Below, piece by piece: positions 226 through 46,442 of a stretch of 64,000 nucleotides of DNA (positions within the stretch are counted from its first letter, which is position 1; each line of letters begins with the position of its first letter). The notes beneath the pieces were generated by a model. The model was not told the origin of the DNA, made no database searches, and was given only the letters and a program-made list of their open reading frames with translations. The position numbers and the translations under genes are program-made. Origin of the DNA: Microglena sp. YARC (lineage: Eukaryota > Chlorophyta > Chlorophyceae > Chlamydomonadales > Chlamydomonadaceae); the NCBI GenBank assembly GCA_022414725.1, contig CM039466.1, forward strand, positions 34,539,506 to 34,603,505, in the 5' to 3' direction.

Positions 226-593
226 TAGCCTACCAGCAGTACTGGCAGTCCTGACACCAGCACCATCACATACCCTTGCCTTGACAAATACATGAAACAC
301 TGCGTACTTCCATCATAGACAATAAGCAGTTGCCACAAGACAAACATAAAATAATGTACACCTACATTGAGGCAAACATTCAAACCCATGCCGACATGTA
401 TACATCCATCTTGTACCCCTTCACCTACACCTACACCAACACCTCTACAACCGCTACCACCACCACCATTGACATCAGCACTTGACTACCAAGATAATGT
501 ATCCACCAACTCACACCCTGCCACTACCACCACTACCACCACCACCACCATTGACACCACCACCACCCACCACCAACACCAACACCAACACCC
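226..593. other. Low-complexity intronic or 5' flank, no gene seen
   Basis: Bases 226-370 are ordinary unique-looking sequence. From about 400 the plus strand becomes an ACC/CCA-rich low-complexity run that grades into the 86-bp array. No exon of the downstream fibrillin gene is recognised here. Its N-terminal exons probably lie before the window. Confidence 0.5.
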
Positions 594-2373
594 ATGAAGT
601 TCTTGAGGGTCACTGGAAGTTGTTGTACACCTCAAACACCACCCACCACCAACACCAACACCCACCAACACCAACACCTACCAACACCAACACCCACCAG
701 CATTAACACCCACCAACACCAACACCAACACCCACCGACACCAACACCCACCAACGACCACCAACACCAACACCCACCACCCACCACCACAACCAGGCTC
801 TTGAAGTTCTTGAAGTTCTTGATGGTCGCTGGAAGTTGGTGTACACCTCAAACACTCAGACCTTGATGCTTCTGAACGCCATCGACTCCATCCCTCTTGC
901 GGATATTGGAGACGTGTACCAAGTGATGCCACCACCACTACCCACCAACACCACAACCAACACCCACCAACACCACCACCAGGCTCTTGAAGTTCTTGAG
1001 GGTCGCTGGAAGTTGGTGTACACCTCAAACACTCAGACCTTGATGCTTCTGAATGCCATCGACTCCATCCCTCTTGCAGATATTGGAGACGTGTACCAAG
1101 TGATGCCACCACCACTATCCACCAACACCACAACCAACACCCACCAACACCACCACCAGGCTCTTGAAGTTCTTGAGGGTCGCTGGAAGTTGGTGTACAC
1201 TTCAAACACCACCCACCAACACCCACCACCCACCACCACCACCAGGCTCTTGAAGTTCTTGAGGGTCGCTGGAAGTTGGTGTACACTTCAAACACCACCC
1301 ACCAACACCCACCACCCACCAACACCACCAGGCTCTTGAAGTTCTTGAGGGTCGCTGGAAGTTGGTGTACACTTCAAACACCACCCACCAACACCCACCA
1401 CCCACCAACACCACCAGGCTCTTGAAGTTCTTGAGGGTCGCTGGAAGTTGTGTACACTTCAAACACCACCCACCAACACCCACCACCCACCAACACCACC
1501 AGGCTCTTGAAGTTCTTGAGGGTCGCTGGAAGTTGGTGTACACTTCAAACACCACCCACCAACACCCACCACCCACCAACACCACCAGGCTCTTGAAGTT
1601 CTTGAGGGTCGCTGGAAGTTGGTGTACACTTCAAACACCACCCACCAACACCCACCACCCACCAACACCACCAGGCTCTTGAAGTTCTTGAGGGTCGCTG
1701 GAAGTTGGTGTACACTTCAAACACCACCCACCAACACCCACCACCCACCAACACCACCAGGCTCTTGAAGTTCTTGAGGGTCGCTGGAAGTTGGTGTACA
1801 CTTCAAACACCACCCACCAACACCCACCACCCACCAACACCACCAGGCTCTTGAAGTTCTTGAGGGTCGCTGGAAGTTGGTGTACACTTCAAACACCACC
1901 CACCAACACCCACCACCCACCAACACCACCAGGCTCTTGAAGTTCTTGAGGGTCGCTGGAAGTTGGTGTACACTTCAAACACCACCCACCAACACCCACC
2001 ACCCACCAACACCAACAGGCTCTTGAAGTTCTTGAGGGTCGCTGGAAGTTGGTGTACACTTCAAACACCACCCACCAACACCCACCACCCACCAACACCA
2101 ACAGGCTCTTGAAGTTCTTGAGGGTCGCTGGAAGTTGGTGTACACTTCAAACACCACCCACAACACCCACCACACCCACCACCACCCACCAACACCACCA
2201 GGCTCTTGAAGTTCTTGAGGGTCGCTGGAAGTTGGTGTACACTTCAAACACCACCCACCAACACCCACCACCCACCAACACCACCAGGCTCTTGAAGTTC
2301 TTGAGGGTCGCTGGAAGTTGGTGTACACTTCAAACACCACCCACCAACACCCACCACCCACCAACACCACCAG
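594..2373 (+). repeat. 86-bp minisatellite carrying a fibrillin splice acceptor and exon start
   Basis: Seventeen recognisable copies (near 797, 983, 1161, 1245, 1331 and so on to 2287, with the true exon at 2374), plus a degenerate one at 597, contain CCACCAG followed by the first ~45 bases of the fibrillin exon (frame ALEVLEGRWKLVYTSNT). An ACC-rich intron tail then leads to the next copy. The period is 86 bases from about 1588 to 2100. Two early copies (about 797-927 and 983-1105) carry a longer piece of the exon, as far as the codons for DVYQV, and both break at the same point. The long open frames on both strands are products of the repetition. Confidence 0.9.
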
Positions 2374-2526
2374 GCTCTTGAAGTTCTTGAGGGTCGCTGG
2401 AAGTTGGTGTACACTTCAAACACTCAGACCTTGATGCTCCTGAACGCGATTGACTCCATCCCCCTGGTGGATATTGGAGACGTGTACCAAGTGATCGACG
2501 GGAAGACACTGACGGCTCACAACAAG
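2374..2526 (+). CDS. Fibrillin exon a (last acceptor of the 86-bp array)
   Basis: This 51-codon, phase-0 exon runs from CCACCAG to a GTGCGC donor. It is the only array copy that continues uninterrupted past DVYQV into IDGKTLTAHNK and a donor. Confidence 0.85.
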
Positions 2527-4493
2527 GTGCGCCAAAATTGAAATTTTGAAAATGGTACGAGCTGCGTGAGTTTATGGTAACTAAGGCAAGACTCATGTTA
2601 ATGTCTACCTTCTAGTTAAGGCGTATCGTGTAAATGCAGTAACTCAAATTCAAATTCAAATTACCACCACTTCATGTGACTTCCATTTTTTGAACCTCTA
2701 AACATTCATGTGGATGACCCACCCACCCACCCACCCGCACCACCCACCCACACACCACCCACCGCCCCCTGACCCTGTGTAGATCTATATCGCTGTGCCA
2801 GTCGTGCTCGCATACCATGACTCCAATGTTTTTGCACCTGTATACATCCATGTGAATATACCCCTCACACTCGATGTTGCAGATTGACATCGCTGTGCCA
2901 GTCATGCTCTCACTATCTGCTGAGGCCGGCTTTGAGGTCCGCACACCCCGTCAGTTCAAGGTCCGATTCCACAAGATGGGCTTGGACACTTATATCCAGA
3001 CCCCCCAGCTCCTGGCCGCCATTGATATGCCTGACTCTATCACTGTGTTGGGTACCACCATTGACTTGACCATGCTCAGGTGCGCATGGTTGGTTGGCTC
3101 CCACCTAGGAGGGGGGGGGGGGGGGGGGGGGGCGGAGGGAGAGGAGGAGAGGACAGGAGAGGGGGGGGGGAAGAAGGAGAATAAGAAAAGACACTTTGGC
3201 ATGTCTGACTCGATAATTGTGTTGGGTAACACCATCCACTTGACCTTGCTCAGGTGCGCATGGTTGGTTGGCTCCCACCGAGGGGGAGAGAGGGGGGGGG
3301 GGGGGGGGGGGGGGAGAGAAAACCCATTGACATGCCTGACTCGATCACTGTGTTGGTTAACACCATCGACTTGACCACGCTCAGGTGCGCATGGATGGTT
3401 GGCTCCCACAAATGGGGGGGGGGGGGGGAGAGAGAGAGAGAGAGAGAGAGAGACTTGTGCTTTCTCTATAATAGGGTTGACTAGATGACTTACTCTTTAC
3501 GGAAGAGAGTGGGTTCAAAGTTCTTCACAGGTTCCCTCCAAAGGCTGGATTGATGCCCCACCCACCCAACCCCACCCAACCCCACCCAACCTCACCCAAC
3601 CCCACCCAACCCCACCCAACCCCACCCAACCCCCACTCCCACAGCTGACTGAGATGCCCTCCAAAGCCCTACTCATACCCTGACCTTGATGAATAAAGAA
3701 ATAGTACGCATTATTACGAGGCGTGAGGTTGAGGGGGCGAGCCCGTTTGCTTGCACTGGGACCAACCACGAAACCCCAACCCCAACCAATCTCACACATG
3801 CTCCTCCCAACCCTGTAGAACCATGCCCGTCAACCCCATGAACTCCACCACTACCACCTTTCTCCCCCCCCCCCCCCCCTCCCTCCGTGGGTTGACAGGC
3901 CTTCAAAGCCCTACTCATGCCCTGACTCTGAGCCATCTCACACATGCCATCCCCGACCCCCCCCCCCCCCCCCCCCCCCCCCCCTTTTAACTATGCGTGA
4001 GGTTGAGGGGGGCAGCCAGTTTGCTTGCACTGGGACCAACCACCAAACCCCGACCCCGACCCATCCCACACGTGCTCTCTCCCCCCCCTGTAGGACCATG
4101 AACCCCATCATCAACCCCATGAAATCTGCTGTGGCAACTGCCCAGGCCATGCTCCGGCAAGCCAGCCCGTTTGCTTGCACTGGGACCAACCACAAAACCC
4201 CACCCCCGACCCATCTCACACATGCCCCCCCCCCACCCACCCACCCCACACACACACACACCTCCCCCTGTAGGACCATGTTTATCAACCCCATGAATTC
4301 TGCTGTGGAGACTGCCCAGGCCATGCTCCAGCAGGCTGTGTCCCCACAGTTTGACATGAACCCAAGTGAGATGACCTCCCTCTGGATGCTCACCACCTAC
4401 CTGGATGGCACACTTCGAATCTCCCGGGACGATAGCGGACGTGTGTTTGTCATGCTCAAGGATGTTTCAATTGACAGCCTGGTCAGCCGATGA
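2374..4493 (+). CDS. PAP/fibrillin (plastid lipid-associated) protein, C-terminal part, 3 exons
   Basis: Three exons, 2374-2526, 2883-3079 and 4274-4493, join in phases 0 and 2 to give about 189 codons ending in TGA. The product matches the PAP/fibrillin domain: a Trp-rich start (EGRWKLVYTSN), a middle GFEVRTPRQFKVRF strand region, and the C-terminal signature TTYLDGTLRISRDDSGRVFV. Fibrillins are lipocalin-like plastid proteins associated with plastoglobules and thylakoids. The N-terminal exons and any transit peptide are missing and should lie upstream of the window. Each splice boundary is accompanied by extra tandem copies of itself, so the true boundaries were chosen by frame continuity. 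The family assignment is firm. The subfamily, and whether all exons are included, is not. Confidence 0.85.
2777..2813 (+). pseudogene. Partial copy of the fibrillin exon b acceptor and start
   Basis: GTGTAG followed by about 31 bases resembles the acceptor and first bases of the true exon at 2883 (frame IYIAVPVVLAY against IDIAVPVMLSL). It stops being similar after about 30 bases. Confidence 0.7.
2883..3079 (+). CDS. Fibrillin exon b
   Basis: Acceptor TTGCAG at 2877-2882, then 65 codons plus 2 bases, with donor GTGCGC at 3080. It encodes the central domain from IDIAVPVM to VLGTTIDLTMLR. Confidence 0.85.
3103..3452 (+). repeat. Two extra copies of the fibrillin exon b 3' end and donor, separated by G-tracts
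   Basis: Bases 3199-3284 and 3331-3416 repeat the exon end that begins near 3027 (MPDSITVLGTTIDLT...LR), the CAG/GTGCGC donor and the following GGTTGGCTCCCAC. Poly-G or G/A-rich tracts intervene (3110-3132, 3293-3313, 3415-3452). Donor positions are 3080 (true), 3254 and 3385. Confidence 0.85.
3554..3640. repeat. CCCAACCCCA-type minisatellite
   Basis: About eight copies of a 10-base CCCACCCAAC unit lie inside the fibrillin intron. Confidence 0.85.
3703..4195 (+). repeat. Repeated block: element A plus fibrillin exon c acceptor
   Basis: Three blocks each start with an element-A copy (gaggcgtgaggttgaggg... near 3718, 3988 and a part at 4163) and end with an intron tail, CCCTGTAG and the exon start (GACCATG...AACCCCATGAA). 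Acceptors are at 3818, 4093 and the true 4273. The second copy keeps about 65 bases of exon and the first about 35. C-tracts separate the blocks. Confidence 0.8.
4274..4493 (+). CDS. Fibrillin exon c (terminal)
   Basis: Acceptor CCCTGTAG at 4266-4273. The first base completes the split codon, and 72 codons and TGA follow. It carries the conserved C-terminal strand TTYLDGTLRISRDDSGR. The last codons (SIDSLVSR) are the seed of the array that follows. Confidence 0.85.
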
Positions 4494-6172
4494 GCAAACA
4501 GTCCATTGACAGCCTGGACAGCCAGGTCAGCCGATGAACCATCAGTCCATTGACAGCCTGGACAGCCTGGTCAGCCAATGAACAAACAGTCCATTGACAG
4601 CCTGGACAACCTGGTCAGCCGATGAACCATCAGTCCATTGACAGCCTGGACAGCCTGGTCAACCGATGAACAAACAGTCCATTGACAGCCTGGACAACCT
4701 GGTCAGCCGATGAACAAGCAGTCCATTGACAGCCTGGACAGCCGATGAACAAACAGTCCATTGACAGCCTGGACAACCTGGTCAGCCGATGAACAAGCAG
4801 TCCATTGACAGCATGGACAGCCGATGAACAAACAGTTCATTGACAGCCTGGACAACCTGGTCAGCCGATGAACCATCAGTCCATTGACAGCCTGGACAGC
4901 CTGGTCAGCCGATGAACAAACAGTCCATTGACAGCCTGGACAACCTGGTCAGCCGATGAACAAGCAGTCCATTGACAGCCTGGACAGCCGATGAACAAAC
5001 AGTCCATTGACAGCCTGGACAACCTGGTCAGCCAATGAACCATCAGTTTATTGACAGCCTGGACAGCCTGGTCAGCCGATGAACAAGCAGTCCATTGACA
5101 GCCTGGACAGCCTGGTCAGCCGATGAACCATCAGTCCATTGACAGCCTGGACAGCCTGGTCAGCCGATGAACCATCAGTCCATTGACAGCCTGGACAGCC
5201 TGGTCAACCGATGAACAAACAGTCCATTGACAGCCTGGACAACCTGGTCAGCCGATGAACAAGCAGTCCATTGACAGCCTGGACAGCCGATGAACAAACA
5301 GTCCATTGACAGCCTGTACAACCTGGTCAGCCGATGAACAAGCAGTCCATTGACAGCATGGACAGCCGATGAACAAACAGTTCATTGACAGCCTGGACAA
5401 CCTGGTCAGCCGATGAACCATCAGTCCATTGACAGCCTGGACAGCCTGGTCAGCCGATGAACAAACAGTCCATTGACAGCCTGGACAACCTGGTCAGCCG
5501 ATGAACAAGCAGTCCATTGACAGCCTGGACAGCCGATGAACAAACAGTCCATTGACAGCCTGGACAACCTGGTCAGCCAATGAACCATCAGTTTATTGAC
5601 AGCCTGGACAGCCTGGTCAGCCGATGAACAAGCAGTCCATTGACAGCCTGGACAGCCTGGTCAGCCGATGAACCATCAGTCCATTGACAGCCTGGACAGC
5701 CTGGTCAGCCGATGAACCATCAGTCCATTGACAGCCTGGACAGCCTGGTCAGCCGATGAACAAACAGTCCATTGACAGCCTGGTCAGCCGATGAACAAGC
5801 AGTCCATTGACAGCCTGGACAGCCTGGTCAGCCGATGAACCATCAGTTTATTGACAGCCTGGACAGCCTGGTCAGCCGATGAACAAACAGTTTATTGACA
5901 GCCTGGACAACCTGGTCAGCCGATGAACCATCAGTCCATTGACAGCCTGGACAGCCTGGTCAGCCGATGAACCATCAGTCCATTGACAGCCTGGACAGCC
6001 TGGTCAGCCGATGAACCATCAGTCCATTGACAGCCTGGACAGCCTGGTCAGCCGATGAACTATCAGTCCATTGACAGCCTGGTCAGCCGATGAACAAGCA
6101 GTCCATTGACAGCCTGGTCAGCGGATGAACAAACAGTCCATTGACAGCCTGGACAGCCTGGTCGGCCGATGA
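4465..6172 (+). repeat. 44/35-bp minisatellite grown from the fibrillin stop region, with a 545-bp higher-order period
   Basis: About 40 units derive from the last codons and stop of the fibrillin gene. The 44-base form is four 11-base blocks, and a 35-base form lacks part of the last blocks. Rare variants recur at a fixed spacing: gcatgg at 4811 and 5356, and the gttta variant at 5046 and 5591, both 545 bases apart. A higher-order duplication is therefore superimposed. The first unit contains the real stop codon, so the array is presumably 3' UTR or flank. Confidence 0.95.
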
Positions 6173-6219
6173 ATGAACAATAGGAACAAACAACAAACAA
6201 CAGACCGCTTGTTTCGTTC

Positions 6220-6302
6220 ACCACTGCAAATTGGTGGTTGGCCCCAGTGTAAGCAAACAGGCTGGCCCTCTCAACCTCACGCCTCATAATAAGGCGTACT
6301 AT
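6220..6302 (-). repeat. Interspersed element A
   Basis: Copy of a short repeat with the signature gcaagcaaac...ctcaacctcacgcctcgtaataaggcgt and a small ACGCCT/AGGCGT hairpin. Others lie near 3718, 3988, 17384 and 24496. Orientation is defined by the gaggcgtgaggttgag strand. Confidence 0.75.
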
Positions 6303-7665
6303 TGATTTAATTATTCATTTATTCGACACTGCGAAGGTGGCGAGTATACTGAGTTCATTACCTTGTTATGGGGCATGCAGCTATTGATTCCTACTTGTAG
6401 GGACGAGTTGCACTACTACAGTACTAACACTGAATCCCGGTGTTAGTTCACTAGTACTATCTTATTTAGCGCTACCTCATAACATGATGATTTTGTTAGT
6501 ATAATATAATGATTTGGATACTCTAATATAATAATTTGGTCACTATTATATGATAATTTGGTTACTAGAATCCAATAATTTGCCACTATAATATAATGAT
6601 TTCGTTTCATTATTGATTCATGTCATGCGTGGAAACGCTGAAATCGGTGAAGCTGTCAAGGCCAGGTTGCTGCACTATTGGTGTTCAGTCCTCTAGAATG
6701 TCTAAGCTTCAGGACATAACTCATTCATTTAGTTGCTGGTGTTCTAGTGTTACCAATATTGGATCATCTCATTTAATTTTTTGTTTGGTAGTGCACTGGA
6801 CTACTTGTGTTACCGAAGGGACCAGCCCATGTATCTGGTTGCTAGTTGCTAGTGTATTTGGGTCATCGATTGGTATTTGCGCCTACTCTTTTTTAGGAGT
6901 GGCAATGCCATTCAAACTGAATCCTCGGTGACGCTGGTTTGTTTAGGGAGACCCACCTCCTGGGGTGAAAATCCTTTCACAACTAAAAAACGACGAGAGG
7001 TGCTCCAACATTCTTGCTCCAGCTAAGACCGTTGGTTACCGTCCCCCTGTCAACCTTGAGAGCTTGGTAAAATTGCAGACGGTATTCTGCAGATTGATCA
7101 GGTTGAGTACATTTTGTGCTCTACCAGCCTTATTAAGGCTCATGGAGTCGTCGTCCGCTGGCAGGGTGAAGATGAGTTGTGAGATGAACTATTCTTCACC
7201 GCTTGAAATTGTATTTGGTTACGTAGCTCCAGCCTTTTAGGCTTCTCGTCAACTTTGGAAGCAACCTCAACATTTTAAACATTATGATCAAAATATACTG
7301 AAACTTGATCCTGGTTACATGTCTCTAGCCAGCAACTTCTTTACCACACTTGCATGCAGGCGTGATTTTAAATATGAGCGTATAGATAATGAATATATAA
7401 ATGCACTTATCTCTCGCACTTGTCCATGCATTCAGGCTGGGCAGTTGAACTTGAACTTGAGCTTGGTTACATGGCTCGAGCCTTTAAGGCTGTTCGCCGT
7501 TGACAGTTAAATGATGAATTATTCACCTCAAAGCATACATATCAAAATATATTTGATCCAATCTCTTCAGACTAGTGCAGGGAGACCCACCCTTCGAGGC
7601 GGAAATTCTTCCCCACCCCCACCTTCCGTAAGTCAGACATGGGCAGTTGGATATCATACTCTCAG
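6303..7665. other. Intergenic, AT-rich, with repeats
   Basis: There is no gene with recognisable homology. At about 6480-6620 five imperfect ~30-base AT-rich units repeat an ATAATTTGG core. At 6885-6985 lies element B. Fragments of a further repeat (ggttacat...agccagcaa...) occur near 7200-7350 and recur at 11890 and 12400. Confidence 0.6.
6885..6985 (+). mobile_element. Interspersed element B
   Basis: About 100 bases ending in CCTGGGGTGAAAATCCTTT. The reverse complement of the same element is found in each tandem unit downstream (31720, 37438, 43200). Shorter 3' tails occur at 7570, 18915, 19070, 19250, 26118 and 26785. A conserved 3' end with variable 5' truncation suggests a SINE-like retroelement. 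Confidence 0.7.
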
Positions 7666-7882
7666 CCCCTTTCAATGATATACGATGGTCAAGTGGTAGA
7701 CCAGATCGCTGTAGGATGAAGAGTCGGGGGTTCGACTGATCGACTCCCCATTCGGTTGCTCTTGGCGTTGTAGGTCGTCGTCAACCCCGATTGTAGCTTG
7801 TCCAGTTGAGGTAGAAGACAGCTCCCCACCCACGTACTACGGGCTCCCTGAACATCACGCCCCACTAGGCGTTCTCATTACC
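7666..7882 (+). mobile_element. tRNA-derived SINE, copy 1
   Basis: About 215 bases with a tRNA-like head: an A-box-like TGGTCAAGTGGTA and a B-box-like GGGGGTTCGA about 45 bases later. A non-tRNA body follows, with tail CACGCCCCACTAGGCGTTCTCATTACC. Three more copies with the same head, body and tail are at 18306, 22199 and 22971. No functional tRNA is implied, because the acceptor stem does not close. Confidence 0.8.
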
Positions 7883-8857
7883 ATACTCTCACAATTGCAT
7901 AACACGTAGGAAGCTTGGCAATCGGCAATCCCTTGCAGCGCTTCATTAAGCGTGTATCGCGCAAATACGTAAGTAATCTTGTAGCGCACAAGGCAGCATA
8001 GCGGGTAGCAAGTAGTAAGCTTGGCAATTGAAAAGCCCTTATGTAATCGAAAATGGTAGCAAATGGCAGAACAAATGGGAGTCATATAGAGAGTCTAACG
8101 ATCTCCATAGTTAGGTTTGGGTTGGTTTGATTACATGGTCTACCAGCTTGCAAGCTGCTCACATTCTACGGGCGTGCTTAACATGGGTATAATTGTGTAA
8201 TTAAATTATTAATGTAGCACGTACTCGGGGTCCTCGTAGGTAAAACGATTATTTGGGGGTCAGTTCATGAGTTTTTTTCTTTCTAACCCCTCCTGATACC
8301 GTTTTCATGTTTGGGCATGCCCCTTTAGCCTATTTGGCCACCCCTCGACTGTAACAAAGTACACATGGGTAGTATATAAAGGAACGGCAATATGATATCA
8401 TATGATGCCGGCAGTCTGAATAGGCCTAATTTACCATTTATATACAATATCATATGATGCAATGTGTATGATATATTGGTATCATACTCGCCTTTGGTCA
8501 ACATCATAAGATATGCCGGTCCCTAAGTATAAACTATGGATTCGAGTCCTTAGTCCATATCCCTCATGGGTACAACATTACAGATTAATCTACATCCACA
8601 TCGGGGTTTCCGTTTGCACGATTGAATCATTGATCCAGTAGGGGAACTGCTAGCTGCTGGAGGTCTGGCCAGGGGTCGGAAAGTCAATGTTGGCCGCAGC
8701 TATACCCTGTCCGCGCTAAACCACAGCCCCAGAAAGAGCAAGACCCGCGAAGACCCCGCCAAGACAGACCGGCCAGGACTCTTGATCACGCCCATCCACC
8801 ACGCCCAAACGCCCTAAGGTTCCAGGCACCACTTATCGTCCTCCTCTGATCACCAGC
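7883..8857. other. Intergenic and presumptive BPNT-A 5' flank
   Basis: Apart from the MITE at 8379-8525 nothing is recognised. The 200 bases before the ATG at 8858 are GC-richer than the preceding DNA. They would hold the promoter and 5' UTR of BPNT-A, but no TATA box or motif is convincing. Confidence 0.4.
8379..8525. mobile_element. hAT-like MITE family D, copy D1
   Basis: A 147-base palindromic element with ends AGGAACGGCAATATGATATC and ATATGCCGGTCCCTA. Flanking 8-mers AGTATATA (8371-8378) and AGTATAAA (8526-8533) look like an 8-bp target duplication with one change. An 8-bp duplication and TAGGG ends suggest the hAT superfamily. No transposase is present. Confidence 0.75.
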
Positions 8858-26406
<17,549 letters not shown>

Positions 26407-29278: not shown

Positions 29279-30708
29279 ATGGAGTACGCACCAACGCTAA
29301 TCGACGCTTCTGTAGGCTCGATCCTGGAACGGGTCGGGTCGGAGCCCCCTCTGTTGAGAAGCAGCTTCTCGGCAGCCCCGGCGGACCTGGTGGCCCTTCT
29401 GAGGTCCGCACCCCAAGCGGCTGAGCTCCATGCAGCCTACGATGCCGTTCGTCTAGCTGCTCGACTGTGCACGGTGAGTTCGGATAAGCTTTGAATGCGA
29501 GCGCAGAGTAATGACTTCGCTCGGGTACTTCCGAGCTGAGGGCCCATGCAATGACGAATAACATGTTCTTTTGTCTCAGTTTGCTGATAGGATAGACCAT
29601 GCAACATTTGCATGACACTGTGAGTTTTATGCATGCCTGTGATTGGCTGAAATTCTGAATTTGTGTGTTCTATCATTCGCAGACTGTCCAACACCAGCTA
29701 TCAACTACTGAGAAGATGGAGAAAATGGACGACTCACCTGTGACTGTAGCGGACTACGGCGCCCAAGCGCTTGTGGCCTGGTCCCTGTCAAAGTTCTCTC
29801 CCAATACCCGTCTGTCCATGGTGGCAGAAGAAGACTCTCATGCTCTAAGATCCCCCTCTGGCCAGGGTCTGGTGGAGCGCATCACTCAGCTGGTCAACTC
29901 AGTCCTCCAGGTTGAAGAGGGTGAGGAGGGTGCTAACCCCCTCACATCCAACGATGTGCTAGAACTTATTGACCAGGGTGATTCCCCTGGTGGTCCCAGC
30001 GGTCGTCATTGGGTGCTAGACCCCATTGATGGCACCAAGGGCTTTGTAGGAATGCGCCAGTATGCCATCTGCTTGGCACTGATTCAGGATGGTGAGGTGG
30101 TGGTGGGTGTGCTGGGTTGCCCCAACATCCCTCAGTCCACTGTCACTGAAGAAGACGGTGGACCCAGTGCTATGGCCAAGGCCAAAAAGAGTGATGATGT
30201 TGGGTCTGTGTTCTTTGCTCACCAGGGCTATGGTGCCTATGTGGCTCCCATGTGGGGGAACTACAGCCTGCACACCCTGCCCAACATTCAACGCATCCAT
30301 GTGGATGACGTGCCTGCCCCTTTCACCAATGCCCGCTTCATGGGGGCGTATGAGTCAGGCCACTCCAATCATGGTTTCTCCGCCGCCCTGGCTAGCAAGG
30401 TGGGTGTGAGCCTTCCCCCCTTCCTCATGGACAGCCAGGCCAAGTATGGCATCCTGTCACGGGGCGATGCCTCCGTCTTCATGCGCTTCCCACCTCCCTC
30501 GTACCGAGAGAAGATCTGGGACCATGCTGCTGGCTTTGTGATTGTTGAGGAGGCAGGTGGCAAGGTGACTGATGCACATGGCCAGCGGCTGGACTTCTCT
30601 CAAGGCCGGGAGCTGGATACGTATGGTGGTATTGTAGCGGGCCCCCCCTTGGTGCATAGCGCTGTGCTGGCAGCTGTGCTGGAGCTAGGTGGACCGCACA
30701 ATCAGTAG
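29279..30708 (+). CDS. 3'(2'),5'-bisphosphate nucleotidase, copy 1 (2 exons)
   Basis: Exon 1 29279-29473 (ATG, 65 codons) and exon 2 29683-30708 join in phase 0 to give 406 residues. Donor ACG/GTGAGT, acceptor CATTCGCAG. All family motifs are intact: SPVTVADYGAQ, VAEEDS, WVLDPIDGTKGFVGMRQY and IWDHAAGFVIVEEAGG. It should convert PAP to AMP and phosphate, and possibly PAPS to APS. The N-terminus (MEYAPTLIDASVGSILERV) is acidic and not transit-like, so a cytosolic enzyme is likely, unlike BPNT-A. It keeps only the first of BPNT-A's eight introns. It is the best-preserved of the tandem set and heads it. Its 5' half and promoter differ from copies 2-4, while its 3' half and 3' flank are nearly identical to theirs. 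Confidence 0.93.
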
Positions 30709-30717
30709 AGCTCCATA

Positions 30718-30915
30718 GCTTTTCTTTTCAGTTACAAGCAACAGCTTCTAGGCTTATCCCCTTTCGGGCCATTGAGCCAAACCAAATGCGACCTAGGGCA
30801 TCTTGAAGCAGACACGACCAGCTATTCAGAGCTGCAGAAATATTAGGTTTCAGATCAGTAGCTAGCTCAAGGAGCTACTTGAAGCTACTGCTCGTAGCCA
30901 TAAAGAAAGGCTATG
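30718..30915. mobile_element. MITE family C, copy after copy 1 stop codon
   Basis: Begins 9 bases after the TAG: CATAGCTTTTCTTTTCAGTT to the complementary AAAGAAAGGCTATG. Orthologous insertions follow the stops of copies 2, 3 and 4. Confidence 0.8.
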
Positions 30916-31719
30916 TATGGCTTGCCAGAGCCGCATATTATGAAAAGCGATGTTCTTACAATTCATCCAGACAAAGCATTTGATTAGTCCTACCTCATGC
31001 TCAGCCTGTAAAAGCCTTTTACATACTGGTACATGGCTTGTGATAGCCTTGTACGTACATGACCATAGTAATGACGTTGTCATTAAAGCTTTATCTTCTA
31101 ACATATACAGCCTGTTCTACGCTAGCATGTGCTTTGGACTATGATTATATGAATTGTGTTCTGTCCTTGGCGCAAGAAGACTTGAGAGGGTGGCTAGATC
31201 TATGACATCTGTCACCCCTCCACACCACATTACATTTCGGCGTTTCGCATGGTCAATGGCACTTCCGTTTAATTGGATGACCTCGCCGATTATTCGCCTG
31301 CATATGCTCAGCTTATGCATAAAAAGCATTAGATAGCAATACATCAGGCTTTTCTTCTTACCATACTCCCCCAAATTTCGGACTTGTTTCTTCATTGCCT
31401 GCCCAGGTTAGTCTAGCCGGGTACCCAGTTCTTGATTTCTATGGATAGACATCCATGAGCCAGGACAGATGGGATTCATAGGACATGGGTGTCGAACATA
31501 GTATAATTATATCAGAATTATGAACAACTTCATTTGTGCTGAAGATGTTTTACTAGCTTCTCTCACATTCCATTATTATAAGAAGCAGGATGTACCATAC
31601 ATACAACCATAGTTCTAGATATAGCTGTGCACGTACGTCCTCTCAGCCCAGTTTTGAGGTTGAAGGTCCTTAGCGCCTCTCTTATGTGCGATACACGAGT
31701 TTGTTTATTTTTATTATGT

Positions 31720-31830
31720 ATGAAAGGAATTTCATCCTAAGAGGTGGTCTGCCCGACACAAACCAGCGGCACCAAGGATTCAGTTTGAATGGTGTTGCCA
31801 ATCCTACAAGAGTAGGCACCTTTAGGGTGG
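31720..31830 (-). mobile_element. Element B, reversed copy in U1
   Basis: Reverse complement of 6885-6985, with landmarks AAACCAGCGGCACCAAGGAT and CAGTTTGAATGGTGTTGCCA. Orthologous copies are in U2 (37438-37548) and U3 (43200-43310). Confidence 0.75.
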
Positions 31831-33072
31831 GCGGGAGATACAAGATGAATGTATGAATTAACACCGCCCCTAATTTGATGGACTTATCCGGACTACTGGT
31901 ATGCAGCTGGGCAATTGGAGTTTTTTTTATTTATTTTGGTGCTGTGTTGGGCACATATTGTCCAATTTAGCATTTTAGGGTTTGCAATACTCATTTGTTA
32001 TATAATTTGAAACAAATGCTTTATCCGTCACATTAAATGCCCTCTCTCGAGTTGCACACCAATTTGATCAGTCCTGCCGACTGGAATGCGCCTAAATTCT
32101 GCGATGTGATAGTAACAAAACCATGACTAAATACGGATTCATTATTAATATTATTTCCTGTATTGCCCTTTCTGCTTCCTGGATTATTAGGCTAGCGCCC
32201 TATCGTGTTACTACTTCGAGTTCTGAACAACGAGAAGCAGTCTACCTGGTTTAAACCTTATTAAGTCGTTTCCCATGAAAAATAGAATGCTGAGGCACCA
32301 ATCAATGCTACAAAATTGTTTTGTATCAAGTAAAGGGTTTGCCTGGTTTTCGACTTCCAGCCATCGTGGCCGTAACTTGACAGGAGGTATCTAACCCATC
32401 TAACCGCCCCGTGCGTTAGCTGTTAGCTGATCCACGGCAGCTGATCGCATGCCGTCCTCGCTTTCAATTTAGTCCACGATTTGCTAGCGAGCATTCACCT
32501 CGAACATACTTACTCACCATACCCGGCTGGCCCCGGCACCCAGCCGAAGACACCACGACCCCTTGGATTGACAGTGTGGCACACCACTCCCTTGCCTGCC
32601 TGCTTGCTTCATCCTACCCCTACACTCCGGCCCTACACCTCCGACAGTATATTCTACTCGTCGCGAACTTTAAGACCACTATGGAGCACGCAACCACGAT
32701 GTTATTTGACTGGCCATAATCGGACTTTCCGGACCCCCCTTTTCAATACCATTCACGACTCCGCCCGACTCCGCCCTCCCCGGGGCCCTCCGGGGGGCCC
32801 TCCCCCCTGGCCCTCCCCTCCCCCTCACCCCGGCACGACAATTTCTGAGTACCATTTCTTGGCCAATCCGCCAACTCCCGCGTGCTGCTCGACTTCAGTG
32901 CTCGCATATTCAAAACCTTGCTGCATCAGCTGTCACACGCATCTTGCCCTGCGATGTTCGAGAAATAACAACAGACCAATCCCAGGCTGCGATGGAAAGG
33001 CTTGGGATGCCCCTATGCACAATATGTACCTGGATTCAGCTTCTTTTGTTGATCACAGTCGAAACTAGATTT

Positions 33073-33097
33073 GACCCTGTGTTCCGAACACAGGGTC
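33073..33097. other. Leader hairpin of copy 2
   Basis: GACCCTGTGTT-CCG-AACACAGGGTC, perfect 11-bp arms. Conserved at 38789-38813 and, with one mismatch, at 47223-47247, about 9 bases upstream of an ATG (33106 in copy 2, 47256 in copy 4). Confidence 0.75.
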
Positions 33098-33126
33098 GTC
33101 GGAGTATGACCAGTCGAATGATATAA

Positions 33127-36100
33127 TCGAATGCCGACCCCTTGCCAAGGCGGGTCAGAAAGGCGAGCCGGCAAAGCAGCTTCTTTTCAGCCCCGATCGA
33201 CCCCATTGCTTGCCTCAAGGGAGCCCCCTACGCACGTGAGATGCAAGCTGCGGTGGACGCGGTCCGCATCGCAGCCCGACTGTGCAAGGTATGCTAGGGG
33301 TTGCCGGTCGATATGCCATGTACTCATGTGGTAGGGCCGCGTGTGGCTCGGGACGGGATGCGAGGCTAGGCGTGGTGAAGAGGAATGTGGTGTGGGAGAT
33401 GTGGTGGGCTGCGTGGTGGTAGGAAGGGTAGAGTGAGCCTGTTGTTTTTGATGATGACCTGGATGCGTTGGCATTATTAGTTGGGGGTGGTTATAGTTTG
33501 GAACAGTTGGGTGCACTCGAGGCTGTCGGCATGTTCATGTTCTAGAGAAAGGTTAAGCCAGAAGGTCCAGCACAGGGCAAGTTGCATCCCAATTCAAAGG
33601 ATGGAGGAGGATAGATAGATAGATAGGTAGATAGATAGATAGATAGAGATAGAGGAAATTGCCAGCGCCCCTTGAATCGGAATGTAGAGAATTCATGAGG
33701 CCAAGACGTACCAACATACTCTGTCTTGAATGTTAAGAATGTAGGTTAGGGATTACTCATGTCTAGGGACCTGCATATCATATTAGATCATAGAAATTGA
33801 ATCACATGATTTGTATATAAATGGTAACTTCAGCCTAGTCAGACTGTCGCATTCATATGATATCATATGATAACATATTGCTGTTCCCTACTCATGACGG
33901 GGTCACTTGTTCACTTGGTTGCATGTCAGGGGGCTACCACCTGAAATGCGTCCTTCACTCTACAGTCTCTGGATATTCCCTGAACAGACTCCCTCCTGAT
34001 GCCAACAAGCCACACTTGAATGCGACTTAGAGGAGTATGCATAAAACAGGATGCAAACACTAAAACTCATACAGTTCTTGGATGAGATTGTTTCCCCCTC
34101 CCTCCTTAGTGTTCATCTACATGAACTGAAATCCAGGAAGTACAACACCATCTGCGTTCGATGACTGAGAAGATGGAGAAAGTGGACGACTCACCGGTGA
34201 CAGTAGCAGACTACGGTGCACAAGCGCTTGTGGCTTGGTCCCTCTCTAAGCAAGATCCTCACAACCGGCTGTCCTTGGTTTCAGAGGAAGACTCACGAAC
34301 CCTTAGGTGGGTGCTTAACATATTTATTTCTCTGTTCAAACTGTATGCATGTATGTATTTTAGCCAGTACACCATGGGCAGCAGACAACTAGGAAAGGTC
34401 TTATCAACAGAAGCACGTCAGGATTCACTCATTTTTGTTTAGGTTCATGTTTCACTGCTCACTGTGCATTGTTCTGCCCATTCAAATATATGTACTTTAC
34501 AGTCTAGGGGTAGCCAAATAGGCTGGAGGGACTTGCCCAATCTTCAAAATATGAAGGGCGGCTAAGAAAAAACAAACACTGGTGAACTGATCCCCAACAA
34601 ATCGTAAACGTCGATTGTCTGGAGTTCCTGCTATGCCGATAATGTAACACTCGACCAAAATGTATGAATACATTATGTAGTCCTATGGCAAATTGGCCAA
34701 GGGTTCTTGACATGATTGGATGCGACTTGGAGAGGGTTCTGGGGCACCCATGGCAGGGCATGCAGCAAGATAACCACTGCTTTTCCTTTCCGCTACGAGC
34801 AGCAGCTTCCAGGCAGCTCCCCTGGCTTGCTATTCAGCCAAACCTAACGCGACCTGGTGCACCTTGACACTGCCACGATCAGCTTTCCAGAATTGCTGGA
34901 ACATTTGTGTGTAGCCCATTGGCTGGCTCAGTGAGCTGCCTAGAAGCTGCTGAGAAGCTGATGAGAAAAGCCGAAAAGAAATACCCTGTTAGCCGTCTGT
35001 GCTGGAAATCTAATCCCTTTCTGACTGCATGCCATTCCCTGCTGCTAGTGGCAGGCTTTGCGTGTGAAAAGCCGTTAATAAAGCCGTCAATAAAGCCATA
35101 AACCCTATGGTCTACCCCCTTGCTTAACTTGAGACTACTGGCTGCCATGTAATGCTTACTTCCAGACTTCTATCGAGTCTCCTCGTTATCACGACAATGC
35201 TGATAACTGTACAAGTGATCGTAAATCTGTCTGCCAGCTCTGTCATTGACTGGTCATGTCTTACATACATTTACCAAGGAATAGATAGGGGACTTGTCAT
35301 GGTGTCTTCTGAAGGTCTTGTTTTAAGTGAAGCTATTACCGGTTACTTGAGCAGTCTCCTCCGAGGTTAGCCATGCATCTGTTCATGTGCTTGGCTGCTT
35401 GATTGTGACATGTAAGCTTGTCCCTCCATTCAGGCCGCCATGCATCTGATCATGTGCTTGGCTGTTTGATTGCGTATTGTACTCATGTAAGGTCGTTCCT
35501 CAATTCAGGGCACAATGCATGTGCTTCTATATGTATGTTAAGCCAACACAATGATCCCATACACCTTCCCTTGTAGATCCCCCTCTGGCAAGGGTATATT
35601 GAAGCGCATCACTCAGCTGGTCAACTCAGTCCTTGAGGGTGAGGAGGGTGCTACCCCCCTCACAGCCAATAAAGTGCTAGAGCTTATTGACCTGGGTGAC
35701 TCCCCTGGTGGTCCCAGCGGTCGTCATTGGGTGCTGGACCCCATTGATGGCACCAAGGGCTTTGTAGGAAGGCGCCAGTATGCCATCTGCTTGGCGCTGA
35801 TTCAGGATGGTGAGGTGGTGGTGGGTGTTCTAGGTTGCCCCAACATCCCCCACTCCCCTGTCACTGAAAAAGACGGTGGACCCAGTGCTATGGCCAAGGC
35901 CCAAAAGAGTGATGACGTTGGGTCTGTGTTCTTTGCTCACCAGGGCTATGGCGCCTATGTGGCTCCCATGTGGGGGAACTACAGCCTACAAACCCTGCCC
36001 AACATTCAACGCATCCATGTGGATGATGTGCCTGCCCCTTTCACCAATGCCCGCTTCATGGGGGCGTATGAGCCAGGCCACTCCAATCATGGTTTCTCCG

Positions 36101-36426
36101 CCGCCCTGGCTAGCAAGGTGGGTGTGAACCTTCCCCCCTTCCTCATGGACAGCCAGGCCAAGTATGGCATCCTGTCACGGGGCGATGCCTCTGTCTTCAT
36201 GCGCTTCCCACCTCCCTCGTACCGAGAGAAGATCTGGGACCATGCTGCTGGCTTTGTGATTGTTGAGGAGGCAGGTGGCAAGGTGACTGATGCACATGGC
36301 CAGCGGCTGGACTTCTCTCAAGGCCGGGAGCTGGATACGTATGGTGGTATTGTAGCGGGCCCCCCCTTGGTGCATAGCGCTGTGCTGGCAGCTGTGCTGG
36401 AGCTAGGTGGACCGCACAATCAGTAG
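33127..36426 (+). CDS. 3'(2'),5'-bisphosphate nucleotidase, copy 2 (3 exons, start uncertain)
   Basis: Exons: open from 33127 to 33288, then 34137-34306 and 35577-36426. Phases 0 and 2 are consistent and all motifs are present (SPVTVADYGAQ, VSEEDS, DPIDGT, WDHAAG). Intron 2 lies at the same codon and phase as BPNT-A intron 3. Introns are 848 and 1,270 bases and hold a (GATA)n tract, MITE D4, element E and a MITE C. The frame upstream of exon 1 is closed by TAA at 33124. The only in-frame ATG of exon 1 is at 33241 (EMQAAVDAV), so either translation starts there, giving a shortened protein, or a 5' exon is unseen. GRRQY replaces the GMRQY of copies 1 and 4 just after DPIDGT. Probably functional, but the N-terminus is unresolved. 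Confidence 0.82.
33609..33655. repeat. (GATA)n microsatellite in copy 2 intron 1
   Basis: About ten GATA units. The same site is 39326-39374 in U2 and expanded to about 30 units at 47815-47940 in U3. Confidence 0.9.
33764..33890. mobile_element. hAT-like MITE family D, copy D4
   Basis: TAGGGACCTGCATATCATAT to ATTGCTGTTCCCTA. Flanks CTCATGTC and CTCATGAC (7 of 8). Confidence 0.82.
34497..34655 (+). mobile_element. Interspersed element E in copy 2 intron 2
   Basis: TTTACAGTCTAGGGGTAGCC to GATAATGTAACACTCG. Orthologous at 40227-40380 and 48812-48965. Confidence 0.65.
34774..34978. mobile_element. MITE family C in copy 2 intron 2
   Basis: CACTGCTTTTCCTTTCCGCT to GAGAAAAGCCGAAAAG, with the subterminal GCAGCTTCCAGGCAGCTCCC and its complement. 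Orthologous at 40498-40705 and 49088-49280. Confidence 0.75.
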
Positions 36427-38842
36427 AGCTTCATAGCTTTTCTTTTCAGTTACAAGCAACAGCTTCTAGGCTTATCCCCTTTCGGGCCATTGAGCCAAAC
36501 CAAATGCAACCTAGGGCATCTTGAAGCAGACACGACCAGCTATTCAGAGCTGCAGAAATATTAGGTTTCAGATCAGTAGCTAGCTCAAGGAGCTACTTGA
36601 AGCTACTGCTCGTAGCCATAAAGAAAGGCTATGTATGGCTTGCCAGAGCCGCATATTATGAAAAGCGATGTTCTTACAATTCATCCAGACAAAGCATTTG
36701 ATTAGTCCTACCTCATGCTCAGCCTGTAATAGCCTTGTACATACTGGTACATGGCTTGTGATAGCCTTGTACGTACATGACCATAGTAATGACGTTGTCA
36801 TTAAAGCTTTATCTTCTAACATATACAGCCTGTTCTACGCTAGCATGTGCTTTGGACTATGATTATATGAATTGTGTTCTGTCCTTGGCGCAAGAAGACT
36901 TGAGAGGGTGGCTAGATCTATGACATCTGTCACCCCTCCACACCACATTACAATTCGGCGTTTCGCATGGTCAATGGCACTTCCGTTTAATTGGATGACC
37001 TCGCCGATTATTCGCCTGCATATGCTCAGCTTAGGCATAAAAAGCATTAGATAGCAATACATCAGGCTTTTCTTCTTACCATACTCCCCCAAATTTCGGA
37101 CTTGTTTCTTCATTGCCTGCCCAGGTTAGTCTAGCCGGGTACCCAGTTCTTGATTTCTATGGATAGACATCCATGAGCCAGGACAGATGGGATTCATAGG
37201 ACATGGGTGTCGAACATGGTATAATTATATCAGAATTATGAACAACTTCATTTGTGCTGAAGATGTTTTACTAGCTTCTCTCACATTCCATTATTATAAG
37301 AAGCAGGATGTACCATACATACAACCATAGTTCTAGATATAGCTGTGCATGTACGTCCTTTCAGCCCAGTTTTGAGGTTGAAGGTCCTTAGCGCCTCTCT
37401 TATGTGCGATACACGAGTTTGTTTATTTTTATTGTGTATGAAAGGAATTTCATCCTAAGAGGTGGTCTGCCCGACACAAACCAGCGGCACCAAGGATTCA
37501 GTTTGAATGGTGTTGCCAATCCTACAAGAGTAGGCACCTTTAGGGTGGGCGGGAGATACAAGATGAATGTATGAATTAACACCGCCCCTAATTTGATGGA
37601 CTTATCCGGACTACTGGTATGCAGCTGGGCAATTGGAGTTTTTTTTATTTATTTTGGTGCTGTGTTGGGCACATATTGTCCAATTTAGCATTTTAGGGTT
37701 TGCAATACTCATTTGTTATATAATTTGAAACAAATGCTTTATCCGTCACATTAAATGCCCTCTCTCGAGTTGCACACCAATTTGATCAGTCCTGCCGACT
37801 GGAATGCGCCTAAATTCTGCGATGTGATAGTAACAAAACCATGACTAAATACGGATTCATTATTAATATTATTTCCTGTATTGCCCTTTCTGCTTCCTGG
37901 ATTATTAGGCTAGCGCCCTATCGTGTTACTACTTCGAGTTCTGAACAACGAGGAAGCAGTCTACCTGGTTTAAACCTTATTAAGTCGTTTCCCATGAAAA
38001 ATAGAATGCTGAGGCACCAATCAATGCTACAAAATTGTTTTGTATCAAGTAAAGGGTTTGCCTGGTTTTCGACTTCCAGCCATCGTGGCCGTAACTTGAC
38101 AGGAGGTATCTAACCCATCTAACCGCCCCGTGCGTTAGCTGTTAGCTGATCCACGGCAGCTGATCGCATGCCGTCCTCGCTTTCAATTTAGTCCACGATT
38201 TGCTAGCGAGCATTCACCTCGAACATACTTACTCACCATACCCGGCTGGCCCCGGCACCCAGCCGAAGACACCACGACCCCTTGGATTGACAGTGGCACA
38301 CCACTCCCTTGCCTGCCTGCTTGCTTCATCCTACCCCTACACTCCGGCCCTACACCTCCGACAGTATATTCTACTCGTCGCGAACTTTAAGACCACTATG
38401 GAGCACGCAACCACGATGTTATTTGACTGGCCATAATCGGACTTTCCGGACCCCCTTTTCAATACCATTCACGACTCCGCCCGACTCCGCCCTCCCCGGG
38501 GCCCTCCGGGGGGCCCTCCCCCCTGGCCCTCCCCTCCCCCTCACCCCGGCACGACAATTTCTGAGTACCATTTCTTGGCCAATCCGCCAACTCCCGCGTG
38601 CTGCTCGACTTCAGTGCTCGCATATTCAAAACCTTGCTGCATCAGCTGTCACACGCATCTTGCCCTGCGATGTTCGAGAAATAACAACAGACCAATCCCA
38701 GGCTGCGATGGAAAGGCTTGGGATGCCCCTATGCACAATATGTACCTGGATTCAGCTTCTTTTGTTGATCACAGTCGAAACTAGATTTGACCCTGTGTTC
38801 CGAACACAGGGTCGTCGGAGTATGACCAGTCGAATGATATAA

Positions 38843-41800
38843 TCGAATGCCGACCCCTTGCCAAGGCGGGTCAGAAAGGCGAGCCGGCAAAGCAGCTTCT
38901 TTTCAGCCCGATCGACCCCATTGCTTGCCTCAAGGGAGCCCCCTACGCACGTGAGATGCAAGCTGCGGTGGACGCGGTCCGCATCGCAGCCCGACTGTGC
39001 AAGGTATGCTAGGGGTTGCCGGTCGATATGCCATGTACTCATGTGGTAGGGCCGCGTGTGGCTCGGGACGGGATGCGAGGCTAGGCGTGGTGAAGAGGAA
39101 TGTGGTGTGGGAGATGTGGTGGGCTGCGTGGTGGTAGGAAGGGTAGAGTGAGCCTGTTGTTTTTGATGATGACCTGGATGCGTTGGCATTATTAGTTGGG
39201 GGTGGTTATAGTTTGGAACAGTTGGGGTGCACTCGAGGCTGTCGGCATGTTCATGTTCTAGAGAAAGGTTAAGCCAGAAGGTCCAGCACAGGGCAAGTTG
39301 CATCCCAATTCAAAGGATGGAGGAGGATAGATAGATAGATGGATAGATAGATAGATAGATAGATAGATAGAGATAGAGGAAATTGCCAGCGCCCCTTGAA
39401 TCGGAATGTAGAGAATTCATGAGGCCAAGACGTACCAACATACTCTGTCTTGAATGTTAAGAATGTAGGTTAGGGATTACTCATGTCTAGGGACCTGCAT
39501 ATCATATTAGATCATAGAAATTGAATCACATGATTTGTATATAAATGGTAACTTCAGCCTAGTCAGACTGTCGGCATCATATGATATCATATGATAACAT
39601 ATTGCTGTTCCCTACTCATGACGGGGTCACTTGTTCACTTGGTTGCATGTCAGGGGGCTACCACCTGAAATGCGTCCTTCACTCTACAGTCTCTGGATAT
39701 TCCCTGAACAGACTCCCTCCTGATGCCAACAAGCCACACTTGAATGCGACTTAGAGGAGTATGCATAAAACAGGATGCAAACACTAAAACTCATACAGTT
39801 CTTGGATGAGATTGTTTCCCCCTCCCCTCCTTAGTGTTCATCTACATGAACTGAAATCCAGGAAGTACAACACCATCTGCGTTCGATGACTGAGAAGATG
39901 GAGAAAGTGGACGACTCACCGGTGACAGTAGCAGACTACGGTGCACAAGCGCTTGTGGCTTGGTCCCTCTCTAAGCAAGATCCTCACAACCGGCTGTCCT
40001 TGGTTTCAGAGGAAGACTCACGAACCCTTAGGTGGGTGCTTAACATATTTATTTCTCTGTTCAAACTGTATGCATGTATGTATTTTAGCCAGTACACCAT
40101 GGGCAGCAGACAACTAGGAAAGGTCTTATCAACAGAAGCACGTCAGGATTCACTCATTTTTGTTTAGGTTCATGTTTCACTGCTCACTGTGCATTGTTCT
40201 GCCCATTCAAAATATATGTACTTTACAGTCTAGGGGTAGCCAAATAGGCTGGAGGGACTTGCCCAATCTTCAAAATATGAAGGGCGGCTAAGAAAAAACA
40301 AACACTGGTGAACTGATCCCCAACAAATCGTAAACGTCGATTGTCTGGAGTTCCTGCTATGCCGATAATGTAACACTCGGCCAAAATGTATAAATACATT
40401 ATGTAGTCCTATGGCAAATTGGCCAAGGGTTCTTGACATGATTGGATGCGACTTGGAGAGGGTTCTGGGGCACCCATGGCAGGGCATGCAGCAAGATAAC
40501 CACTGCTTTTCCTTTCCGCTACGAGCAGCAGCTTCCAGGCAGCTCCCCTGGCTTGCTATTCAGCCAAACCTAACGCGACCTGGTGCACCTTGACACTGCC
40601 ACGATCAGCTTTCCAGAATTGCTGGAACATTTGTGTGTAGCCCATTGGCTGGCTCAGTGAGCTGCCTAGAAGCTGCTGAGAAGCTGATGAGAAAAGCCGA
40701 AAAGAAATACCCTGTTAGCCGTCTGTGCTGGAAATCTAATCCCTTTCTGACTGCATGCCATTCCCTGCTGCTAGTGGCAGGCTTTGCGTGTGAAAAGCCG
40801 TTAATAAAGCCGTCAATAAAGCCATAAACCCTATGGTCTACCCACGAAGTACAGTCTATTGTCTATTGTCTGCTATTCGTAACTTGCTTAACTTGAGACT
40901 ACTGGCTGCCATGTAATGCTTACTTCCAGACTTCTATCGAGTCTCCTCGTTATCACGACAATGCTGATAACTGTACAAGTGATCGTAAATCTGTCTGCCA
41001 GCTCTGTCATTGACTGGTCATGTCTTACATACATTTACCAAGGAATAGATAGGGGACTTGTCATGGTGTCTTCTGAAGGTCTTGTTTTAAGTGAAGCTAT
41101 TACCGGTTACTTGAGCAGTCTCCTCCGAGGTTAGCCATGCATCTGTTCATGTGCTTGGCTGCTTGATTGTGACATGTAAGCTTGTCCCTCCATTCAGGCC
41201 GCCATGCATCTGATCATGTGCTTGGCTGTTTGATTGCGTATTGTACTCATGTAAGGTCGTTCCTCAATTCAGGGCACAATGCATGTGCTTCTATATGTAT
41301 GTTAAGCCAACACAATGATCCCATACACCTTCCCTTGTAGATCCCCTCTGGCAAGGGTATATTGAAGCGCATCACTCAGCTGGTCAACTCAGTCCTTGAG
41401 GGTGAGGAGGGTGCTACCCCCCTCACAGCCAATAAAGTGCTAGAGCTTATTGACCTGGGTGACTCCCTGGTGGTCCCAGCGGTCGTCATTGGGTGCTGGA
41501 CCCCATTGATGGCACCAAGGGCTTTGTAGGAAGGCGCCAGTATGCCATCTGCTTGGCGCTGATTCAGGATGGTGAGGTGGTGGTGGGTGTTCTAGGTTGC
41601 CCCAACATCCCCCACTCCCCTGTCACTGAAAAAGACGGTGGACCCAGTGCTATGGCCAAGGCCCAAAAAGAGTGATGACGTTGGGTCTGTGTTCTTTGCT
41701 CACCAGGGCTATGGCGCCTATGTGGCTCCCATGTGGGGGAACTACAGCCTACAAACCCTGCCCAACATTCAACGCATCCATGTGGATGATGTGCCTGCTC

Positions 41801-44566: not shown

Positions 44567-44928
44567 AAGGGCCCCGAATCGCAGGTTCGCTGAATCGCAG
44601 GTTCAAAGGAGTGACCAACGTGCCAGCTCATAGGTCGTGAAGCGCCACCTCATCACATTGATTTGCCGGCTCAAAGGTTGTACAACGCCACCTCATCGAA
44701 TATCTGTGGCGCCTGCTAGCTCCAGGCGCAGGGCGAATCAGAAGTGGGGAGCAAGGGCGAGCATGAGGCGAATTACTCGCAACCTCGGATTTCCGGGTCA
44801 GTGTGGGTGAGAGAGTGCGGGTGTGGCTGAGAGGGTGTGGGTGGGTGAGACATTGGGTGTGGGTGAGAGAGAGTGTGTGTGTCTGTATGTGTGTGTGTCT
44901 GTGTGTGTGCTGAAGTGTGTGTGTGCTG

Positions 44929-44971
<43 letters not shown>

Positions 44972-46390: not shown

Positions 46391-46442
46391 GCCGCGAAGA
46401 ATTCCAGATGGGGGTCGACCCCCATCTGGAAGTCTTCGCGGC
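46391..46442. other. 52-bp near-perfect palindrome
   Basis: Arms GCCGCGAAGAATTCCAGAT and the complement meet at GGGGGTCGACCCCC, with one mismatch and no loop. Confidence 0.9.

Follow-up and report, generated by a model that had tools for sequence, protein, structure and literature searches.

Head-to-tail arrays within introns form a known class, the intronic minisatellites, and introner elements are a known process by which intron content is enlarged. The arrays described here resemble the former in their head-to-tail arrangement, with units in the window (the whole stretch of 64,000 nucleotides that was analyzed) reaching 186 nt, but they differ in that 40 of 80 repeat families include an exon edge and that local repeats are present in 44–47 of 55 sampled introns. 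They resemble introner elements in that intron content is enlarged, but the copies are local and not dispersed. When probes from the exon edges were compared with introns of other loci, none of 550 control searches found a match, and at the level of these edge probes there is thus no introner-like dispersed family.

In intron gain by tandem genomic duplication, as outlined in PMC3296678, the duplicated stretch also holds a splice signal, whereas the copies counted here are intronic and leave the spliced exons whole. In mouse cells, fill-in of 46-nt overhangs followed by end joining yields tandem duplications, according to PMC5730883 and PMC7407515, which also cite work on such duplications in Arabidopsis and rice, as well as Schiml 2016 and Vaughn & Bennetzen 2014. 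The duplications that arise by fill-in of overhangs or offset nicks, as outlined in PMC5730883, are, like the present ones, short direct tandem copies, and no inverted copies were found here at the edges tested. The present copies differ in being concentrated in gene bodies, where roughly between one quarter and one third of intron length is made up of them, and in having units longer than the 46-nt overhangs of that account.

A literature survey at the level of titles and the first lines of abstracts, covering few subscription journals, returned no report of genome-wide splice-junction-spanning arrays and none of gene-body-confined tandem duplication in an alga, which is weak evidence of novelty on both points. 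The new elements are the breadth across genes, the intact decoys, and the contrast between gene bodies and other DNA. We consider it likely that stretches of gene bodies are repeatedly duplicated in tandem, in direct orientation and beside themselves, and that introns lengthen by this route.

Junction copies in two neighboring genes

The window comes from a chlorophyte genome of 568 Mb, where it spans positions 34539506-34603505 of its contig, and contains the following genes.

2374..4493, + strand: fibrillin gene (PAP_fibrillin, PF04755), exons a–c at 2374-2526, 2883-3079, and 4274-4493 (gene model, Pfam)
8858..26406, + strand: BPNT-A, a SAL1-like 3'(2'),5'-bisphosphate nucleotidase gene, PF00459 (gene model, protein hits, Pfam)
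8858-9049, 13297-13372, 15636-15726, + strand: BPNT-A exons 1–3 (gene model)
17506-17618, 19504-19698, 20677-20891, + strand: BPNT-A exons 4–6 (gene model)
24099-24221, 25766-25816, 26257-26406, + strand: BPNT-A exons 7–9 (gene model)
29279..50716, + strand: four paralogues, BPNT-B to E (tblastn; intron bounds from tblastn ends)

The fibrillin gene starts upstream of the window, which contains three of its exons, and its Pfam match is to PF04755 (E 1.6e-27). In the gene model, the nine exons of BPNT-A combine to an open frame of 401 codons, and the introns are of the GT-AG type; the protein matches PF00459 (E 6.2e-42) and is nearest to those of chlorophyte green algae, the best-named hits being Edaphochlamys, Pleodorina, Raphidocelis, Tetradesmus, and Chlamydomonas. 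Two introns, positioned like introns 1 and 3 of BPNT-A, are retained in BPNT-C, D, and E, and one is retained in BPNT-B; BPNT-A introns 2 and 4–8 are absent from BPNT-C to E and may have been gained in BPNT-A or lost from these paralogues. Identity reaches 96.5% in blocks common to BPNT-B to E, and few local duplications are seen there. By eye, Copia-like retrotransposon frames were recognized at 57497-63078 on the minus strand, and a dispersed element was seen in introns and spacers at 7670-7870, 18310-18500, 22190-22400, and 22975-23170; it has a tRNA-like B-box (ggttcga in three copies, ggtttga in the fourth) and is possibly a SINE.

Copies in fibrillin and BPNT-A were counted by searching each exon against its own surroundings, and the resulting features are listed below.

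560..2373, + strand: fibrillin exon a acceptor, 17 copies of intron tail plus exon start (exon search, TRF)
2778..2812, + strand: fibrillin exon b acceptor, one decoy copy (exon search)
3201..3409, + strand: fibrillin exon b end plus donor, two copies (exon search)
3793..4162, + strand: fibrillin exon c acceptor plus exon start, two copies (exon search)
4467..6173, + strand: fibrillin stop-codon-region array, ~40 units with a period of ~44 nt (TRF, exon search)
12543..13177, + strand: BPNT-A exon 2 acceptor plus exon start, four copies, unit ~151 nt (exon search, TRF)
13613..13675, + strand: BPNT-A exon 2 end plus donor, one copy, 98% identical (exon search)
15526..15577, + strand: BPNT-A exon 3 acceptor, one copy (exon search)
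15844..16399, + strand: BPNT-A exon 3 end plus donor, two copies, the second without GT (exon search)
18247..19439, + strand: BPNT-A exon 5 acceptor plus exon start, three copies (exon search)
19698..20188, + strand: intron-start arrays 3' of BPNT-A exon 5 (TRF, exon search)
20287..20624, + strand: BPNT-A exon 6 acceptor plus exon start, four copies, unit ~98 nt (exon search, TRF)
20971..22712, + strand: BPNT-A exon 6 end plus donor, 11 copies (exon search)

The counts given in a preliminary description of this DNA were recovered for the acceptors of fibrillin exons a, b, and c and the donor of exon b, for the acceptors of BPNT-A exons 2, 3, 5, and 6, and for the donors of BPNT-A exons 2 and 3; at the exon 6 donor, where about 11 copies had been reported, 11 were found, 10 of them mappable at the junction and 4 with GT intact. 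The acceptor AG is intact in 2 of the 4 copies at BPNT-A exon 6 and in 16 of 17 at fibrillin exon a, where the unit is ~86 nt and two longer copies contain 122 exon nt. The many donor copies described for BPNT-A exon 5 proved to be real arrays of a different content, in which the intron start (GTGAGTAC...) alone recurs, accompanied by no more than 4 exon nucleotides. Amplification of the fibrillin stop codon region was borne out by 39 further copies in 4561-6172 (40.5 units by TRF); the first stop is retained in this array, which sits at no splice site.

Copies in the window are 71–100% identical to the true edge. Because most are less than 100% identical, the frames are intact, and six large contigs show the same pattern in genes unrelated to one another, an assembly artifact, which the preliminary description had raised against its own observation, is an unlikely source of the arrays.

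Of 46 nearest copies, 25 tile 75% or more of their offset, and the remainder may be diverged or non-adjacent. The copy of the BPNT-A exon 2 end (13329-13675) is 63 nt long and 98% identical at an offset of 284 nt, which it does not tile, hinting at a later deletion or a templated insertion and not at a simple tandem event. Some high-identity copies are untiled in this way, which a single simple tandem event does not account for and which counts against the reading favored here.

Breadth across genes and contrast with flanking DNA

The sample comprised 55 introns with 110 splice edges: 10 from the window (fibrillin and BPNT-A), 19 from CCT/Cpn60 genes, and 26 from kinesin genes. The CCT and kinesin loci were found by a Pfam-family search of the alga's own genome, and their splice sites were modeled from the HMM matches. 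Among 64 CCT matches, the 52 inside fetched regions were used and gave 41 consecutive pairs, of which 16 were skipped (HMM gap or distance), 5 were without a splice model, and 20 were modeled; one of these was dropped for a poor acceptor, leaving 19 introns from 9 of 11 regions. The 128 kinesin matches gave 31 pairs, 30 of which were fetched, and after removal of 2 without a model and 2 that scored low, 26 were used; these introns were picked without regard to whether they had edge copies, and their length was restricted to 60–3,200 nt. The incomplete intron 5' of fibrillin exon a, with its 17 copies, is outside the count, its donor lying beyond the window. Coverage and edge counts skip repeats with an offset below 15 nt or above 3 kb.

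A direct junction-spanning copy was present at 41 of the 110 edges with dust on, at 46 with dust off, and at 40 in a probe search, in which none of the 110 edges had an inverted junction copy. Depending on masking, such copies were found at 7–8 of 20 edges in the window, 10–11 of 38 in the CCT set, and 23–28 of 52 in the kinesin set. The 550 control searches exclude chance or dispersed repeats as the source of the edge copies. The kinesin HMM table (128 matches) contains 10 partial exon copies, all 10 on the expected side of the main exon and 9 with an end no more than 4 residues from its edge. These data demonstrate that the arrays are not peculiar to two genes, since four kinds of gene show them, and they support the earlier suggestion of a recurrent local duplication process. 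By eye, one similar partial copy was noticed in a tRNA-synthetase table of 29 matches.

Local duplications cover 34–46% of gene bodies or introns overall, compared with ~2–4% of flanks or neighboring DNA. With dust on, coverage in the window is 38% for BPNT-A, 3% and 0% for the intergenic stretches 6180-8857 and 26407-29280, 3% for the BPNT-B to E region, and 2% for the copia side. The 11 CCT bodies are covered over 28,365 of 82,472 nt (34%), their 11 upstream flanks over 357 of 15,873 nt (2%) with dust on or 701 of 15,873 nt (4%) with dust off, and the downstream flanks of the 7 loci at which the match reaches the domain end over 248 of 8,791 nt (3%). Downstream of all 11 loci the figure is 2,348 of 14,955 nt (16%), to which L046 and L048 contribute the most. 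Covered downstream lengths are 134 nt in L041, 1,360 nt in L046, 472 nt in L048, and 134 nt in L050, four loci whose matches stop before the domain end and in which the gene probably runs on past the match, in L046 and L048 because the match stops short of the HMM end (at positions 374 and 473 of 490). At 90% identity or more, coverage is 16.6% in window introns, 1.1% in CCT upstream flanks, and 0 of 40,272 nt in neighboring window DNA.

Based on these results, duplication is rare beyond the sampled gene bodies, the out-of-gene sample being small (one window and 11 gene flanks). Location within a gene body is not enough by itself, because the BPNT-B to E introns (355 of 6,697 nt covered, 5%) and 2 of the 11 CCT bodies (coverage 0.02 in L039 and 0.00 in L040; 0.25–0.51 in the nine others) are nearly duplication-free.

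The alternative that survives best is neutral tandem duplication, by slippage or unequal crossing-over, that occurs everywhere and is seen in introns through tolerance and at edges through exon anchors. The small size of the out-of-gene sample leaves room for it, but we regard it as unlikely, because mere tolerance explains the contrast poorly: intergenic DNA should tolerate copies equally well or better, yet it has the low coverage given above, with none in the 40,272 nt near the window genes at 90% identity or more. Rapid intergenic turnover is another alternative, yet young duplications should stay visible. Should the sparse genes (BPNT-B to E and the two CCT genes) prove to be young or silent, a link with transcription would fit. 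We put forward, tentatively, a more specific form of the gene-body reading, in which duplication is limited to transcribed gene bodies (transcription-dependent and perhaps strongest at splice junctions) and builds introns, whereby silent or young genes, perhaps BPNT-C, D, and E, would be spared.

Layout of the copies and their frequency at exon edges

All 105 of 105 junction copies in the 55 introns lie on the intron side, a test that is full for the window and CCT loci alone and weaker for kinesin because the fetched stretches end just past the exon pair. This layout, which the preliminary description had noted, is what direct tandem duplication together with survival of the gene produces. 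If a stretch from an intron point x to an exon point y were duplicated, the product would be [x..y][x..y + rest of exon]. Duplication over one exon edge would thus give an inner copy with the complete exon and leave in the intron a truncated copy with its splice signal, and donors and the fibrillin stop codon would obey the same layout rule, the first stop being retained. As the coding sequence would survive an edge-crossing duplication, the event could be fixed and re-amplified. None of the 22 internal exons has a complete second copy. Because the truncated copy is forced to the intron side, registration needs no splice-directed mechanism, and we conclude that registration to exon edges is largely geometric. 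The side bias, being purely geometric, fits neutral duplication as well.

Local repeats cover 34% of intron interiors with dust on and 46% with dust off. Since arrays inflate themselves, each site was weighted by 1/copy number. After this de-duplication, 14% of interior sites (with dust) or 21% (without) were duplicated, compared with 37% or 42% of edges. The resulting edge/interior ratio of 2.66 (2.08–3.34) with dust and 1.96 (1.56–2.42) without is biased upward, as exon-anchored copies stay recognizable longer and one family may hold several events. Families spanning an edge numbered 40 of 80 against 19.1 ± 3.5 expected with dust and 45 of 85 against 25.6 ± 3.7 without; at 90% identity or more, the corresponding numbers were 16 against 8.9 ± 2.5 and 15 against 7.2 ± 2.2.

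Anchor-free detection, which takes pairs of copies both within the intron and undercounts edge families with one decoy, gave at 75, 85, and 90% identity 23, 11, and 1 edge families against 11.2, 6.5, and 3.5 expected with dust on, and 25, 8, and 1 against 15.3, 6.5, and 3.2 with dust off. At 95% identity or more, 2 of 110 edges had a copy, a ratio of 1.24 (0–6.87), and at 90% or more none of the 38 edges in the CCT set had one. The small number of edge copies at 95% identity, and the anchor-free counts near or below expectation at 85 and 90% (dust off), also speak for neutral duplication. We conclude that the rate at which edges are struck lies between approximate parity with random sites and a two- to threefold excess. 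The preliminary description had asked whether array boundaries cluster at splice sites beyond random placement; across the 55 introns there is an approximately twofold edge excess, but without the anchor it fades or reverses at 85–90% identity. Its caveat that registration may partly be what one can recognize was apt. Intron-side placement is geometric, and the edge excess depends on detection.

The edge/interior ratios and the excess of edge families, including that at 90% identity or more, are in line with a mechanism in which splicing or its intermediates (splice-site R-loop breaks, RNA-templated repair) steer duplication and make the edges true hot spots. The base composition of the introns points the same way: in 55 introns (window, L039–L072) the mean skew is 0.31 over the first 50 nt past the donor, which are rich in G, and -0.60 over the last 50 nt ahead of the acceptor, which are rich in C, and the trend persists at 300–450 nt (31 introns). 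Such steering is not needed for the edge copies, and we judge it improbable. The excess fades or reverses in the anchor-free counts at 85–90% identity, subject to their undercounting of junction families with one decoy, families with several events inflate the ratio, the CCT edges are without copies at 90% identity, and the fibrillin stop-codon array lies away from any splice site. Skew was rejected as a predictor of copies, being alike at edges with and without them (p 0.22, 0.13).

Decoy splice sites and intron growth

The mapped copies provided 121 decoy sites, 95 of them with the dinucleotide intact. Donor decoys retained GT in 28 of 44 cases, compared with 32.5 expected from flanking identity, and acceptor decoys retained AG in 67 of 77, compared with 56.1 expected. 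Intact decoys scored 7.07 against 7.39 for true donors and 5.25 against 5.27 for true acceptors. Decoys are neither clearly purged nor clearly retained, and, as they decay like their flanks and score like true sites, sequence alone barely separates the two.

If used, 4 of the 95 intact decoys would leave the frame open, and the other 91 would lead to a frame shift or an added stop, which does not support the earlier suggestion that the spliceosome is free to pick any copy. Selection that maintains decoy arrays as spare or regulatory splice sites is very improbable, because the retention of AG above expectation is set against a retention of GT below it and against this small number of frame-compatible decoys.

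The true splice site is always the one that gives the shortest exon. Because this inner pair always yields the shortest exon, exon definition would reject decoys on both sides; a choice of the shortest intron would favor decoys. We infer from this arrangement that true sites are picked and decoys ignored through exon definition. Internal exons are 51–372 nt long, and the median intron is 1,032 nt in this non-random sample, compared with medians of 198–343 bp in six core-Reinhardtinia species as given in PMC8226300. A study of Volvox (PMC4378016) associates exon definition with long introns and predicts intron definition for the short introns of volvocine algae.

The minimum repeat offset is 60–220 nt in 65 of 80 families, with a median of ~140. 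These offsets, the direct orientation, and the repeated rounds fit a process in which offset nicks or overhangs are filled in and the ends then joined, and we propose such an origin for the events. The transcription or chromatin state of gene bodies may promote duplication. Unit-end microhomology was compared in 24 arrays, in which the end overlaps are not interpretable. The sampled introns have 65,868 interior bases; once the arrays are collapsed, 50,755 remain with dust on and 45,227 with dust off. Intron interiors thus become 23–31% shorter, which makes local duplication one of the main contributors to the length of the sampled introns.

For Chlamydomonas relatives, a group that may not include this alga, the discussion of intron length in PMC8226300 describes the benefit of long introns as unknown and regards whatever drives intron length there as likely ancient. 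The present findings bear on two open questions: by what route introns become longer, and by what means the spliceosome distinguishes genuine sites from nearly perfect copies that lie a few hundred bases off. With natural decoys of measurable divergence at 36–42% of sampled splice sites, these introns are ready-made tests of exon definition versus intron definition. If the gene-body contrast is true genome-wide, it points to a mutational process tied to transcription, and if duplication is indeed limited to transcribed gene bodies, intron length would be a by-product of expression history.
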